From: Nitrosomonas sp. | Lineage (GTDB): Bacteria; Pseudomonadota; Gammaproteobacteria; Burkholderiales; Nitrosomonadaceae | Length of the DNA stretch: 64,000 bases | Direction of reading: 5' to 3' | Assembly (NCBI GenBank): GCA_019635215.1 | Contig: JAHBZZ010000005.1 | Span: 1-64,000 of the forward strand | Shown: positions 34,958-46,113 of the stretch, piece by piece | Position numbering within the stretch: position 1 is the first letter of the stretch | How the letters are laid out: each line of letters opens with the position of its first letter | Program-made: the position numbers and the translations under genes | The notes under the pieces: generated by a model | Databases searched by the model: none | What the model saw: the letters and a program-made list of their open reading frames with translations, nothing else | What the model was told of the DNA's origin: nothing

Positions 34958-35211
34958 TTCCATACCTTCCATACCTTGATGCATGAGGTATGGAACCCTG
35001 AGAGCCTTATTCCATGCCTCTGTTCCATACCTTCCATACCTTCCATACTGCTTTTACGTACGCATACACGCGCGCGTGTACGTGCGCGCGCACCCGCGCA
35101 TGTGTGCGCGCACGCATGTAGGTATGGAAGGTATGGAAGGTATGGAAGAAGCCCTGTCCATGCGGGTTCCAGCCTTCCATACCTCACGCATGAGGTATGG
35201 AAGGTATGGAA
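34958..35211. repeat. Dyad array of 9-bp GGTATGGAA motifs around an alternating purine-pyrimidine core
   Basis: Eleven exact copies of TTCCATACC/GGTATGGAA and two one-base variants are laid out almost mirror-symmetrically about position 35085. Left arm: two forward units, a hairpin loop and one inverted unit, then four more forward units. Right arm: three inverted units, one forward, a loop and two inverted. The centre (35056-35120) alternates purine and pyrimidine almost throughout (CGCGCG, GTGTACGTGCGC), which favours Z-DNA. It lies just downstream of the replication gene, so a replication origin is one reading. Confidence 0.85.
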
Positions 35212-35266: not shown

Positions 35267-37597
35267 TCAGAACGGGATTCCATCCCCGCTCCCGTCACCA
35301 ACCGACTCGGCAGAGACCGGAGTAGCCGCTCCACGCGCAGGCGGTTGGTACCAAAACCTACTGATTGTATTTGTACGTTTCTCTTCTTTCGTGCAGCCGA
35401 GCATTTGTAATGCCCGTCCAATACGTGTCTGTAAATCGCGCGACAATCGCGCAGGATCGATTTTCAAGTGATAGGCGGCATCTGCCATGGGAAACAGTCC
35501 GATCTGGTCTGAGACGAACTTCTCGAGCATATCGATGAACGAATCATGTTCGTGGCGCTTCACCTGTTCCGGATCGAATATCAAACGCTGCTCCTCGTTT
35601 GTCGGCCAGAATCGCTCACCCGCTTTGTAGCGATGATACGCCTCCGCAAACAACTGATCCCTGACCGCAGCCAAACCCTCGCAATCGATATCCTGCGCAC
35701 AGACAATCGGCCAGAAACGCCGCCCGCCCGTCCCGTCCTTATTCCACGACCATTCATTGGTCGACCCCCCGAATACAAGCTGGCGCGGGCTGCGAATATC
35801 TCGCCGCCCGTAGGGAGGTCTGTACTCATCCACCTGTCTCGATAGAAAGGATTTTTGCCGTGCAGCCTCCGCGCGCGCAAGAGAGTCCAATTCGGCAAAC
35901 TCATACAGCCATTTGCCGCGGATCGAGCTCATCGAATCCTTGTTGTGCAGATCCAGGTCAGTATCAGCAAACCACTCCCCAGCCAACGTGCGCAACAGAC
36001 TCGACTTCCGCCGCCCCTGAGAGCCCTCCAGCACCAGGCAATAATCGAACTTGACACCAGGCTCCATCACCCGCGCGATCATCCCCATCAGAAACCACCG
36101 GGATACACGCATCACATACGCGCTCTTCGGCGTACCGATATAATCCGTGATCCAATCATCACAGCGCTTCACGCCGTCCCACTCCTGCGATTTGAGATAA
36201 TTGCGAACCGGGTGAAACTTATTGATCTTCGCCAGCGCTTCAACTGCCTCGGCAACCCTGGTCGGGTCTGGCGCAAAACCGTAATTCCGTGTCAACCACA
36301 TCGCCGCCTGCACATCATCATTCGCATCCCATTCACCGGGCTCCGAATCAAACGGCGGCGGATTCTGCTTGCAGATCACGTACGAAAACTCATTGAACGC
36401 CAGCACGCCACGCCACTTCGGATCATCCAGCAGCACATCGTAAATATTAGACAGACACGGCACGATCTTACCGTTACTCATGTGCAAGCCGGCATGCCCG
36501 GTCGAAATGATAGGACTCTGCTTGCGAATAGTATTGATCATAGCAACCAGCGCATCAGCACCCATGCCATCATCAATCGCGTCCGCGATATCCCAACCGG
36601 GGACCATTTTCCCGGCCTCGGGAATATCGACAATCTCAAACCGGGTAGACGCATCGATATCCAACACCATGCGCCGGATATCCAGCATCGCCTTCATACC
36701 CGGCTGATTTTTCTCCGGCAGCAGCGGCTTTGTTGTGGGATCCACACCCGCATCCCTCTCCGCCTTTGTCAGCTTTTCCCGCTGCGCATCACAATCCGCC
36801 CAGGCGAAGACCTTGCGCCCGCCCAGCGGACGCCAATCGATCTTGCCAACCGCTTTCCCACCGCCCGGCCAGGTGACAATAACAAACCGATCACCGATCA
36901 CAGCACGCGCAGCATCCGCGCACTTCTCGCCCTCCACCAGCAAAACATCACGATCAGCATGCAAAGCCAACAAATCTAGACCGTACAGCATCCTCGGCTC
37001 AGGAAACGCCTGCCAGCGCCAGCCGTGCTCGCCGGTAACACTGTTCTTGCAAAAACACACCGGCATCAATTCTTTGCCACCATCCGATGTTGTAAACCGG
37101 TAAACATACCCGGCAACCCCGCCATCAGACGTGCGGTACGTATAAACCACATCCGGCCGTCCGCGCGCATAATGCGCCACCGGACGATCAGGCGCATCAT
37201 CCGGAGCGGGAATCACCGCAACCCACGGCGAGCGCTTGCGATCAGCGACACCACCATCACGCCCCTCCACCAGCTTAGCTGGCGCATGGCCAGCATTCTC
37301 TTGGTCGATATCAACACCCAAAATCCCGGCCAGCATCATCGCCGCATCTTTCTGCGACATCGAATTGATGTACGCATACAGACTCACCAGATCCCCGCCC
37401 TGATCGCCTGTCGCAAAATCCGCCCACTTGCCGGTGACCACGTTGACCGAAAACGAACCGACCTTGCTGTCAGCCCGCGTAGGGTTCAGCGCTTTGAATT
37501 CATGCCCATCCAGCTTCCCGCCCCACAACCACTCCGGTAGCAGAACGTTCCAGCGAGATAGCGCGACATCGGCGATGCGCTTAAAATCAATCATCAT
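35267..37597 (-). CDS. Primase/helicase with VirE (VapE)-type ATPase domain
   Basis: About 776 aa. The N-terminal 300 residues carry a primase-like zinc/toprim region (GGDLVSLYAYINSM, and VLLVEGEKCADAARAVIGDR). The C-terminal part is a VirE/VapE superfamily ATPase: VLEGSQGRRKSSLLRTLAGE (P loop near residue 525), WLYEFAELDSL, and VFGGSTNEWSWNKDGTGGRR. This one-protein primase-helicase replicates many temperate phages. TTG at 37600 is possible, but ATG at 37597 or 37594 is more likely. Confidence 0.85.
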   Translation of the reverse strand: MMIDFKRIADVALSRWNVLLPEWLWGGKLDGHEFKALNPTRADSKVGSFSVNVVTGKWADFATGDQGGDLVSLYAYINSMSQKDAAMMLAGILGVDIDQENAGHAPAKLVEGRDGGVADRKRSPWVAVIPAPDDAPDRPVAHYARGRPDVVYTYRTSDGGVAGYVYRFTTSDGGKELMPVCFCKNSVTGEHGWRWQAFPEPRMLYGLDLLALHADRDVLLVEGEKCADAARAVIGDRFVIVTWPGGGKAVGKIDWRPLGGRKVFAWADCDAQREKLTKAERDAGVDPTTKPLLPEKNQPGMKAMLDIRRMVLDIDASTRFEIVDIPEAGKMVPGWDIADAIDDGMGADALVAMINTIRKQSPIISTGHAGLHMSNGKIVPCLSNIYDVLLDDPKWRGVLAFNEFSYVICKQNPPPFDSEPGEWDANDDVQAAMWLTRNYGFAPDPTRVAEAVEALAKINKFHPVRNYLKSQEWDGVKRCDDWITDYIGTPKSAYVMRVSRWFLMGMIARVMEPGVKFDYCLVLEGSQGRRKSSLLRTLAGEWFADTDLDLHNKDSMSSIRGKWLYEFAELDSLARAEAARQKSFLSRQVDEYRPPYGRRDIRSPRQLVFGGSTNEWSWNKDGTGGRRFWPIVCAQDIDCEGLAAVRDQLFAEAYHRYKAGERFWPTNEEQRLIFDPEQVKRHEHDSFIDMLEKFVSDQIGLFPMADAAYHLKIDPARLSRDLQTRIGRALQMLGCTKEEKRTNTISRFWYQPPARGAATPVSAESVGDGSGDGIPF

Positions 37598-37715
37598 CAA
37601 ACCTCGCTAACCACATGACAAAAAAATGCGCCGCGACGAATAAACCGTACGCGGCGCCATAAACCGCGGCTAGCGGTATCACAACGAAATAGAGCGCATC
37701 GATCATATAATCCAT
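37587..37715 (-). CDS. 42-aa membrane protein overlapping the primase start
   Basis: The reading frame starts MDYMIDALYFVVIPLAAVYG, has two hydrophobic stretches and ends LARFDDD with TGA inside the primase start region. It fills the only gap between the CII-like gene and the primase, with stop-start overlaps on the primase side. It was found by reading the minus strand; there is no family match. Confidence 0.45.
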   Translation of the reverse strand: MDYMIDALYFVVIPLAAVYGAAYGLFVAAHFFVMWLARFDDD

Positions 37716-39018: not shown

Positions 39019-39285
39019 TCAACATACGATCTTATTTTGATCAACTAACTTTGTGTCGCGCAAGAACGCCCAGTTAATGTCTGGGCGGAGATCTTCACAT
39101 TTCACCCGACCTTGAGAAAATCTCTCAATTTCAGGACAGAATCTTGCCGGGATTGGTCTCCTTCCCAACACCCACTGATTTACCGCTGAGGTTGAAATAT
39201 TAAGAAATTTAGCTAATTTTGCCTGTCCGCCAACGTATTGGCAGACTTCTTTAATTGAAAGCATTTCATGCTGATTGGTATCCAT
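39019..39285 (-). CDS. YdaS/Cro-family repressor
   Basis: 88 aa. SIKEVCQYVGGQAKLAKFLN followed by ISTSAVNQWVLGRRPIPARF is the YdaS-type helix-turn-helix, and CPEIERFSQGRVKCEDLRPD is its usual C-terminal end. It is divergent from the CI-like gene across a 71-bp operator region, so it fills the Cro role: an early repressor of cI and of its own operon. Confidence 0.88.
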   Translation of the reverse strand: MDTNQHEMLSIKEVCQYVGGQAKLAKFLNISTSAVNQWVLGRRPIPARFCPEIERFSQGRVKCEDLRPDINWAFLRDTKLVDQNKIVC

Positions 39286-39356: not shown

Positions 39357-40097
39357 ATGAAATTAACCGACGAACAGCTTGAAGAAGCCAAAAAACTTAA
39401 ACAAAAATTTGACACCCCAAGGAACGGGAGAGAAATAAATCGCGCACAATTCGCGAAAGATAATAACTTGCGGGGTGGTGGCGCCATGATCTACCAGCAC
39501 ATTAAAGGCATTAGGCCGATAAGTATCAATGCAGCAATTGCTTATGCAAAAGGTTTTGATTGCTCGCTTGATGAAATTAGCCCGCGTCTAGCTAACGAAG
39601 CTAGGCAATCCGCACTATTAATAGAAGAAAACAAATCTCCAGTAAAATTAACCAACATTGAAGAGACGGAAAAGACTGCATTAGAGAAAGATGTGCCGCT
39701 TATATCTTGGGTGCAAGCCGGTGATTGGTGCGAAGCGATTAATAGCTCTGAATCTGGCGACGCAGAAGACTGGCTGTGGTGCCCAGTTGGACATAGCGAC
39801 AAGACCTTTGCTTTGCGTGTGAGTGGAGTATCTATGTTTAACCCGGACCCGTATGCAAGGCACACCTTCAAAGACGGGGATATTATTTACGTTGATCCAA
39901 ACAAACAACCGATAAACAACTCATTTGTTGTTGTAAGACTTGAGAATGAAAATAAAGCCACATTTAAACAATTGATAATTGACGGTAATCACAGATTTTT
40001 AAGGGCCATCAACCCGGACTGGCCAGAAAAAATAATAGAAATCAAGAATAATGCCGTTATATGCGGAGTGGTGATATATAAAGGGTCTGAAGTTTAA
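39357..40097 (+). CDS. CI-like repressor with S24/LexA peptidase domain
   Basis: 246 aa. The N-terminal 80 residues are a helix-turn-helix domain (IYQHIKGIRPISINAAIAYA). The C-terminal S24 domain has the autocleavage site WVQA-GDW (Ala121-Gly122), catalytic Ser159 in RVSGVSMFNP and the base Lys204 in NKATFKQL. RecA filaments should trigger self-cleavage and induction. The ATG lies directly next to the third operator, so the mRNA leader is very short or absent. Confidence 0.92.
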   Translation: MKLTDEQLEEAKKLKQKFDTPRNGREINRAQFAKDNNLRGGGAMIYQHIKGIRPISINAAIAYAKGFDCSLDEISPRLANEARQSALLIEENKSPVKLTNIEETEKTALEKDVPLISWVQAGDWCEAINSSESGDAEDWLWCPVGHSDKTFALRVSGVSMFNPDPYARHTFKDGDIIYVDPNKQPINNSFVVVRLENENKATFKQLIIDGNHRFLRAINPDWPEKIIEIKNNAVICGVVIYKGSEV

Positions 40098-43625: not shown

Positions 43626-43853
43626 ATGAAAAAACAAATTTTAGGCGCATTGCTGGGCAGTTTTAGCGTGCCATTGCTGCAACTGAGCGTCAACTCAGGC
43701 ATGCCGCAAGGCAAAGGAAAGAGAGAGAAACAGGGAAAAATATGGGGTCGACCAGGCGCAAAAATCATCCGCAAATTCCATTCTGGAATTGCCGGACTCA
43801 CCGGAAAAACCAGGCATGACAGAGATGCCAGTGGAAACAAACTGCCTTTTTGA
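43626..43853 (+). CDS. Small basic protein with hydrophobic start
   Basis: 75 aa. [20 protein letters not shown] could be a signal or membrane anchor. The rest is strongly basic ([20 protein letters not shown]-like composition). It begins three bases after the previous stop. Unknown. Confidence 0.4.
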
Positions 43854-43872
43854 GAATAACGGAGATCAAATA

Positions 43873-44676
43873 ATGGACATAAAAAACATACGCGGCGAAA
43901 CGCTGCTCACAATCGACAGCGACACGCTTGAAGGTGCCGACCTGAGCGGTGCCGACCTGAGCGGTGCCGACCTGAGCGATACCAACCTGAGCGATGCCGA
44001 CCTGAGCGGTGCCAACCTGAGCGGTGCCAACCTGAGCGGTGCCGGCCTGATCGGTGCCGACCTGAGCGATGCCGACCTGAGCGGTGCCAACCTGAGCGAT
44101 GCCGACCTGAGACGTGCCAAGCTGAGCGGTGCCGACCTGAGCGGTGCCAACCTGAGCGATGCCGACCTGAGACGTGCCAAGCTGAGCGGTGCCGGCCTGA
44201 TCGGTGCCGACCTGAGCGATGCCGACCTGAGCGGTGCCGGCCTGAGCGGTGCCAACCTGAGCGGTGCCAACCTGAGCGGTGCCGGCCTGAGCGGTGCCGA
44301 CCTGAGCGGTGCCAACCTGAGCGATGCCGACCTGAGACGTGCCAAGCTGCCGCTCATTATCTCAATAGATAATCTCTTTTCTTTCGTCGACGATCAAATC
44401 CGCGCAGGCGGAAACCTGGATATGGGCGATTGGCACACATGCGAAACAACCCATTGCATCGCTGGCTGGGTAACGACACTGGCCGGCGACGCCGGGAGGG
44501 TCGCAGAAAATCTATTGGGCACAAACGCCGCGGCCGCGCTGATCATCAATCAATCGTGCCCGTACCTAGAAGGCAAAGTGCCTAATTTTTATGTCACCAA
44601 TGAAGGCGGACTGGAATTTATAAAAAACTGCGCTGAAAAAGAAAGGCAAATTCTTGCGCAAGCGAGCAATCCATGA
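43873..44676 (+). CDS. Pentapeptide-repeat protein
   Basis: 267 aa from ATG 43873, preceded by CGGAG. Residues about 17-160 are about 28 consecutive pentapeptides A(D/N)L(S/R)x, forming a right-handed quadrilateral beta-helix. A C-terminal domain has [20 protein letters not shown] and a helical end, a module seen in phage proteins. Some family members mimic DNA and protect gyrase, but nothing here proves that role. It lies in the CI-controlled right-arm operon. Confidence 0.88.
43927..44350 (+). repeat. 15-bp tandem coding repeats
   Basis: Units such as GGTGCCGACCTGAGC and GATGCCGACCTGAGA repeat about 28 times with few changes, also at silent sites. Such likeness points to recent expansion by slippage or recombination. 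The regular period also opens a long spurious frame on the minus strand. Confidence 0.9.
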
Positions 44677-45274: not shown

Positions 45275-46113
45275 TGACAACTCCGGCTCTAAGATACCAC
45301 GGCGCGAAATTCCGTATTGCGCCGTGGATCATCAGCCATTTCCCGAAACACAATTGCTATGTTGATCCGTTCGGCGGATCGGCCGGTGTGTTGCTAAGAA
45401 AGGACAGATCTTATGCGGAGGTTTACAACGATCTGGATTCTGATGTTGTTAATTATTTCCGAGTCATCCGAGATCCGATTGGTCGAAAAATCCTGCAGGA
45501 AATGTTAGCTCTCACTCCGTATGCGAGAGACGAATTTGAACAGGCATTCGATGAATGCGAAGACCGTATCGAGCGCGCTAGAAGATTGTGCATACGTGCA
45601 CAAATGGGATTCGGGTCAGCCGGCGCAACAAAAAACAGAACCGGATTCCGCATTGATACAAAACGTGAGTACAGTACGGCCCAACACATCTGGGCTAAAT
45701 ACCCTGATACTCTGACTGCGATAGGAGAGAGATTTTCTAGCGTTCTTATCGAAAATAGATCGGCAGTAAAAGTAATGCGTGATCACGACACTCACGATGC
45801 GCTGCATTACGTAGACCCGCCTTACGTCTTTGGAACACGATCTTTAAACTCTCATCATCGCGGTTATTACAAACATGAAATGTCGGATGCAGATCATGTT
45901 GATCTGCTATGCGAGTTAAAAAAATTAATAGGCATGGTGATCGTTTCGAGTTACGAAACTGATCTATACAACGACATGCTGCCAGGATGGTCGGTTGATC
46001 GCACACAAGCCAGGATTTCAGCATCAAGAGGCACCAGATTGAAGACAGAACTTGTCTGGATGAATCCGGCCTGCACTAAAGCTCTCAATCAAAGGTTAAA
46101 TATATTCGAATGA
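45271..46113 (+). CDS. D12-class N6-adenine DNA methyltransferase
   Basis: 280 aa. The FGG motif (VDPFGGSAGVLL, 31-42) binds S-adenosylmethionine, and the catalytic DPPY is at 182-185 (HYVDPPYVFGTR). The order FGG then DPPY is that of Dam/D12 enzymes. No restriction partner is nearby, so it is an orphan phage methylase, probably shielding phage DNA or marking it. The target sequence cannot be told. It overlaps its upstream neighbour by four bases. Confidence 0.9.
   Translation: MMTTPALRYHGAKFRIAPWIISHFPKHNCYVDPFGGSAGVLLRKDRSYAEVYNDLDSDVVNYFRVIRDPIGRKILQEMLALTPYARDEFEQAFDECEDRIERARRLCIRAQMGFGSAGATKNRTGFRIDTKREYSTAQHIWAKYPDTLTAIGERFSSVLIENRSAVKVMRDHDTHDALHYVDPPYVFGTRSLNSHHRGYYKHEMSDADHVDLLCELKKLIGMVIVSSYETDLYNDMLPGWSVDRTQARISASRGTRLKTELVWMNPACTKALNQRLNIFE

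Follow-up and report, generated by a model that had tools for sequence, protein, structure and literature searches.

A dyad iteron array with an alternating core beside phage VapE genes as a probable replication origin

Introduction

In satellite phage P4, the alpha protein combines primase, helicase and origin binding in one protein, the short iterons occur in both orientations, and a second cis-acting array (crr) lies kilobases from ori. Plasmid origins of the RepA/RctB type have tandem iterons beside the initiator gene, together with an AT-rich DUE and DnaA boxes. In the origins of staphylococcal pathogenicity islands (SaPIs), an AT-rich middle lies between the iteron sets. The SaPI origin is located directly 3' of the helicase gene, its iterons are bound by the C-terminal domain, apparently with two hexamers, and the primases of SaPIbov1 and SaPI5 are of the AEP type (PMC7581432). 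DNA binding by T-antigen is assigned to an N-terminal domain (PMC7581432). SV40 T-antigen forms two oppositely oriented hexamers across the origin, and shearing of the duplex between them has been proposed (PMC9894130).

Here, an array of 9-bp iterons was analyzed in a prophage within a 64-kb stretch of Nitrosomonas DNA (hereafter, the window). The array (34958-35211) lies 55 bp 3' of the gene for a 777-aa VapE-type primase-helicase, the proposed initiator (35267-37600, minus strand; PF05272, E 4e-73; PHROG primase/helicase). As in the SaPI rep/ori system (PriRep1, PDB 7pds), a homologous VapE-type hexameric helicase is encoded beside the array, and the array is directly 3' of the helicase gene (75 of 82 loci, see below). 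The differences are that the primase part looks DnaG-like here, whereas AEP primases are described for SaPIbov1 and SaPI5; that the sites are GGTNNGGAA; and that the core is GC-rich and alternating. Primase, helicase and proposed origin binding in one protein, as well as iterons in both orientations, are shared with P4 alpha/ori/crr, whereas no crr-like second array exists here within the 64 kb and the helicase part is VapE (PF05272). Tandem iterons beside the initiator gene are also a feature of the RepA/RctB-type origins; unlike in those, the initiator would be the helicase itself and the middle of the core is not AT-rich. When only exact matches are counted, no DnaA box (TTWTNCACA) occurs within 18 kb of the array, and the nearest one is about 18.5 kb away. 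From SV40 T-antigen, the shearing model is borrowed for the phage core, and no sequence kinship is claimed.

A sequence-only reading of this DNA knew of no described phage element with this design. This stands only in part: SaPI iteron origins 3' of a related helicase gene had been described (PMC7581432), whereas among the open-access papers listed none was found to describe a 12-site geometry around a core that is both GC-rich and Z-like. Against the known VapE-type self-loading iteron origins, the Z-like core is unexpected, and specificity seems to toggle on a single residue. Judging from sequence comparison, it is highly probable that the array is the phage replication origin and that VapE binds its iterons, plausibly as two hexamers facing a core that could flip to Z-DNA. 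That this might be a replication origin with iterons had been one suggestion of the sequence-only reading, and it is now strongly supported by conservation, by the constant position of the array 3' of VapE and by the way in which the iteron covaries with the C-terminal wing of VapE.

The array in the Nitrosomonas prophage

Exact GGTATGGAA/TTCCATACC units occur 11 times in the 64-kb window, and all 11 are within 34958-35211. By chance, 0.42 would be expected over the full 64 kb, and 100 shuffles gave three at most. The array is far from random. Two units inside the array carry one mismatch, TTCCATGCC at 35010-35018 and TTCCATACT at 35041-35049. Half A begins with the outer distal pair, two exact copies of GGTATGGAA (34958-34975, minus strand), followed by the outer proximal iteron, which is exact, inverted and 36 bp from the inner trio (34987-34995, plus strand). 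Next comes a 27-bp spacer (34996-35022), which contains CCCTGAGAGCC, corresponding to a family tendency to nccTGAAAnCC, and the degenerate unit at 35010-35018. The inner trio of half A, two exact matches and one variant, is phased at 9 bp (35023-35049, minus strand). Beyond the core (35050-35120), half B mirrors this order with three exact inner iterons (35121-35147, plus strand), a 27-bp spacer (35148-35174), an exact inverted outer proximal iteron 36 bp from the inner trio (35175-35183, minus strand) and an exact outer distal pair (35194-35211, plus strand). The start-to-start distance from inner to outer sites is thus 36 bp, corresponding to the 27-bp spacer. The motif count bears out the eleven exact units and two one-base variants reported before, and likewise the shared order of two units, loop, one inverted unit, 27-bp spacer and three units in both halves. 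As single strands, the two halves gave more favourable folds than shuffled sequence did (z -3.7 and -6.8), in agreement with the hairpin predicted for each. The window holds a single GGTNNGGAA cluster and no second array. The six sites in each half suggest a match to assembly of two hexamers on an origin, and the array in the window is probably a twelve-site landing pad for the phage's own DNA-unwinding enzyme, as far as its sequence allows us to judge.

Conservation of the element 3' of VapE

A scan of viral contigs for the exact tandem pair gave 60 contigs. A VapE gene with 41.5-72% identity is present in 47 of them, and its stop codon is followed without exception by the first exact site at a distance of 1-152 bp. 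Eleven of the remaining 13 contigs are without a dyad, and two have a dyad near the contig end, one of them (L011) beside a VapE fragment, so VapE was found in 47 of the 49 dyad-bearing contigs. Loci were then drawn from these baited contigs, from a VapE profile scan (the best 80 of at least 587 confirmed) and from a search of 125 genomes in the family, which contributed 30 loci. The pool was restricted to loci with no less than 300 bp following VapE and a score of 270 bits or more; it amounted to 136 loci, the window included, and was dereplicated to 82.

A dyad element directly 3' of VapE was found in 75 of these 82 loci, a broad group of phages and prophages; this rate is biased because 21 of the 24 rows of the VapE search profile were derived from the iteron scan. 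The finder, which tolerates up to two mismatches in inner sites and up to one in outer sites over 7 fixed positions, found none in 410 dinucleotide shuffles, 73 upstream regions and 671 random pieces. Thus, to the question whether relatives have the same array, raised by the sequence-only reading, the answer is that the layout recurs in most VapE loci of this biased sample. The canonical form, in which the core is flanked on either side by three inner and then three outer sites, accounts for 53 of the 75 elements; 14 are off by one site, two are off by three, and six have inner sites only (2+2, 3+2 or 3+3). Because of these last six, twelve sites cannot be obligatory. In 69 of the 75, counted separately for each side, the outer site closest to the inner trio has the inverted orientation and an offset of 36 or 35 bp. 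The other outer sites are mostly at 47 and 56, or at 54/55 and 63/64, and the spacer beside the outer site tends to nccTGAAAnCC. The first site follows the VapE stop codon at a median of 9 bp. The iteron itself varies between loci (GGTATGGAA, GGTTAGGAA and others). For example, L061, a Nitrosomonas MAG found by protein, is without GGTATGGAA and has the same layout in GGTTAGGAA/GGTTGGGAA around a different alternating core. L144, from a genome of the window's genus, and L062 (Nitrosomonas marina) look the same in their 3' regions.

In seven of the 82 loci, the finder detected no element. In L154, from another genome of this genus, the right half of the array just 3' of VapE is missing and the core runs into a reading frame that resembles an IS630-type transposase; the core has probably suffered an insertion. 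L113 has inner-only GGTGTGGGA repeats, and L133, L137, L138, L140 and L142 combine other repeats with a distant VapE. Direct DNA similarity to the array was not found in phage or plasmid records. An exact-triple scan matched one of 369 genomes of the class, namely the array's own genome, and an exact inner-dyad scan matched three of 300 genomes of the order, the two besides the own genome both having VapE adjoining; these patterns are too strict for the scans to measure frequency.

The alternating core

The core of the window array is 71 bp long and alternates between purine and pyrimidine at 91% of its steps. It contains a T tract (35052-35055), which is followed by 66 bp of nearly perfect, Z-DNA-prone alternation, in accordance with the nearly alternating centre noticed beforehand. 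From 35055 onward, the alternation breaks at two steps only, both inside CCC at 35093-35095. Outside the core and 200 bp on each side of it, the 64 kb contain 63,488 40-bp windows, none of which reaches this degree of alternation. A cruciform or hairpin was rejected for this core, since its folding was no better than that of dinucleotide shuffles (z +0.41).

The same property was found across the family. With a B-to-Z energy table and the locus background sampled every 3 bp, the 40-bp window of lowest B-to-Z energy in the locus, that is, the most favourable to Z-DNA, is in the core in 73 of the 75 elements; the most alternating 40-bp window is there in 65 of the 75. In 69 elements, core alternation exceeds that of mononucleotide shuffles at p<0.01, the exceptions being L083, L093, L095, L110, L115 and L127. 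Long alternation with a low B-to-Z energy, as expected of a Z-DNA-forming region, characterizes the core, and the core looks able, by its sequence, to form left-handed DNA. No AT-rich unwinding region was found between the iteron sets; AT-richness is confined to the outer 8 nt of the core.

Core sequence turns over between loci while the alternation is retained. In six close pairs, core substitutions comprise 37 transitions and 20 transversions, against 189 and 270 at fourfold sites of VapE (p 0.001), an excess that comes from three Nitrosomonas-like core pairs (26:2), the other three being without it (11:18). These six were pooled out of 14 pairs, with a core difference of up to about 25% and repeat pairs left out (L112/L037 and L088/L037 repeat pooled pairs); two of the six share a member. 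Unpooled distant core pairs likewise lean to transitions against their own fourfold sites: L144/L026 (14:10), L112/L076 (15:6, with the near-copies L076/L088, 14:6, and L076/L008, 15:6) and L108/L130 (13:11, with the copy L130/L016).

The alternation may have been kept for a reason other than Z-DNA. The array could still be a VapE origin in which the core is a highly flexible, easily sheared linker of YR steps between two helicase rings, with alternation selected for bendability or low stacking. We regard this as a serious candidate, if short of probable. Alternation is retained without depletion of TA steps (observed/expected 1.82), core length ranges from 63 to 102 bp with no helical phasing of the two halves found across these lengths, and the core edges are AT-rich, the first and last 8 bases having 58% and 76% A+T against 29% in the middle (75 elements). 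However, the middle is GC-rich and its commonest steps are CG/GC, which are costly for a flexible or meltable linker and cheapest for Z-DNA. Step use cannot separate Z-DNA from flexibility, because alternation also maximizes flexible YR steps, TA is undepleted and core GC tracks locus GC (r 0.73).

Replication origin or regulatory site

The array could also be a regulatory site of VapE, for autoregulation or for an early-to-late transcription switch, while replication starts elsewhere. The replication gene is on one side of it and the late genes are on the other, it would be co-transcribed with them if the operon is read through, and its halves with the inverted iterons fold as hairpins. However, the array is downstream of VapE, away from the promoter side; sites resembling promoters or terminators are no more frequent than chance predicts; there is no Rfam match; and related VapE plasmids have repeat arrays in the same place. 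This alternative is therefore unlikely. A known RNA element was also rejected, because Rfam matched only tRNAs. The partition, silencing and transcription-pause roles that the sequence-only reading had considered gained no support. GC skew was of no use as an origin sign, since no clear inflection was found at the array and the skew is confounded by coding on one strand.

The VapE primase-helicase and its covariation with the iteron

The adjacent VapE was compared with known folds and with its relatives. It comprises a DnaG-like zinc-domain region, a Toprim-like region, the VapE AAA+ helicase and a predicted C-terminal winged helix. Profile matches were to 7pds (E 3e-73), the DnaG zinc domain 1d0q (E 3e-6) and, marginally, the Toprim structure 2i5r (E 0.97). 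Foldseek also matched 7pds (E 3e-25), so that, among solved structures, hexameric PriRep1 with dsDNA comes closest. For the C-terminal fold, Foldseek matches were weak (best E 0.1), with many winged-helix proteins among them. A Z-DNA-binding winged helix in VapE was considered and is not claimed: the ZBP1 N-terminal domain came at rank 44 (E 0.67).

Residue 749 (F749 in the window; codon 35354-35356, minus strand) lies where the second wing strand of the predicted winged helix begins, and toggles between F and Y with the iteron dinucleotide. The 73 elements with enough VapE sequence divide into 47 with an AT-like and 26 with a TA-like middle dinucleotide of the iteron, and residue 749 is F in 42 of the 47 AT-type loci and Y in 25 of the 26 TA-type loci. 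The exceptional rows are L143, L066, L026 (H), L071 (S), L115 (R) and L127 (Y). Residue and iteron share 0.86 of 0.94 bits of mutual information. A quick tree from which the residue-749 region was omitted, and in which 27 of 70 forks are open, has 13 changes of the iteron class, at least six of them on supported branches. Over 200 pairings of six independent supported pairs, the residue changed the same way in 5.9 and in the opposite direction in 0.0; the median p was 0.031, with values up to 0.0625. This covariation is the main reason for naming VapE as the binder, and the best reading of the sequences is that VapE itself binds the iterons via its C-terminal wing.

Such covariation might also arise without contact, if the 3' end of VapE and the array recombine jointly. 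The short median distance from the stop codon to the first site fits this explanation. However, the next-best C-terminal column reaches only 0.38 bits, unlike the expectation from simple linkage, and joint recombination seems improbable. It is very unlikely that another phage or host protein binds the array for partition or silencing, as for example the multi-HTH protein at 46110 named as one candidate by the sequence-only reading, because, although partition sites also contain long inverted arrays, covariation with a single residue points to VapE, and the dyad-bearing bait contigs have VapE except for two whose dyads are near a contig end. For 46110, a family scan gave no match.

The C-terminus of VapE (...GDGSGDGIPF) resembles an SSB C-terminal tip, and the phage SSB (46717-47160) ends in ...DDFEDDIPF. 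Relatives of VapE end in F in 52 of 73 cases and in PF in 33 of 73. The tip may recruit host replication proteins that bind SSB tips.

Proposed mechanism and implications

On the preferred reading, that of an origin bound by VapE, the C-terminal winged helix of the fused primase and VapE-type AAA+ helicase would use its wing to recognize the 9-bp iterons. Twelve sites, six per inverted half, would nucleate two opposed hexamers across the core, making VapE a self-loading initiator helicase. Between the two motors, strain or shear of the duplex, or normal negative supercoiling, could flip the core to left-handed Z-DNA. The Z-form core would act as a torsional sink that holds unwound torsion locally, and the AT-rich core edges could serve as junctions at which the strands first open. 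We propose more tentatively that origins of this phage group use a left-handed switch, in which a Z-core under two VapE hexamers replaces the AT-rich opening region, selection keeps the alternation across iteron systems, and initiator and iterons re-tune via one F/Y residue.

To our knowledge, it has so far proved difficult to establish what Z-DNA does in any defined process of bacteria or phages. The elements described here are a compact, natural and fast-evolving set of probable origins, in which the letters change, the alternation stays and the presumed initiator gene is adjacent. Thus, a mini-replicon allows a direct test of the question of Z-DNA. The F/Y toggle is a ready one-residue handle on the specificity between initiator and origin, and the layout can serve to recognize likely origins in many phages and phage-plasmids that are still uncharacterised.

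Further VapE loci with other repeats

Fourteen further, mostly more distant VapE loci were compared. In eight of them, the lowest Z energy of the locus is again 3' of VapE: Variovorax phage VarioGold, Acidovorax phage Aval, a circular Comamonas element, L133, L137, L138, L140 and L142. Their repeats differ, being for example TGTCCA, TGTTCA or CGCCCAA (those of Aval were seen by eye). In the other six, the Z minimum is elsewhere: phages Mica, Haddon and PS3 (second-lowest in PS3) and the Acetobacteraceae plasmids pGO128, pKNA06 and p1318-6. In the three plasmids, VapE is followed on its 3' side by repeat arrays that lack a Z-like core, and the cultured phages Mica and Haddon, with a related VapE, have no such dyad directly 3' of it. 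The alternation maximum of the locus is 3' of VapE in only five of the 14, namely VarioGold, Aval, Comamonas, L133 and pKNA06, the last in AT-rich DNA.

A second class of arrays with TGTCCA- or TGTTCA-like repeats was seen in L173 (VarioGold), L174 (Aval), L179 (the 36.9-kb circular record of Comamonas odontotermitis), L137, L138, L140 and L142. They share a GnAGCnGCnGCATnG-like block, as judged by eye, and their lowest Z energy is 241-293 bp after the VapE stop codon. In Marinobacter phage PS3 (L177), a dyad of GGGGTGACC repeats lies 3' of VapE; the spacer motif CTGAAAGCC is kept there despite the different repeat, and the core is only partly alternating.

Prophage surroundings

In the window, a YdaS/Cro-like gene (39019-39285, minus strand) is divergent from an S24-type repressor-like gene (39357-40097, plus strand), and this pair is probably the lysogeny switch of the prophage. 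A reading frame dominated by a pentapeptide-like repeat (43789-44676, plus strand) is located in the prophage early region.
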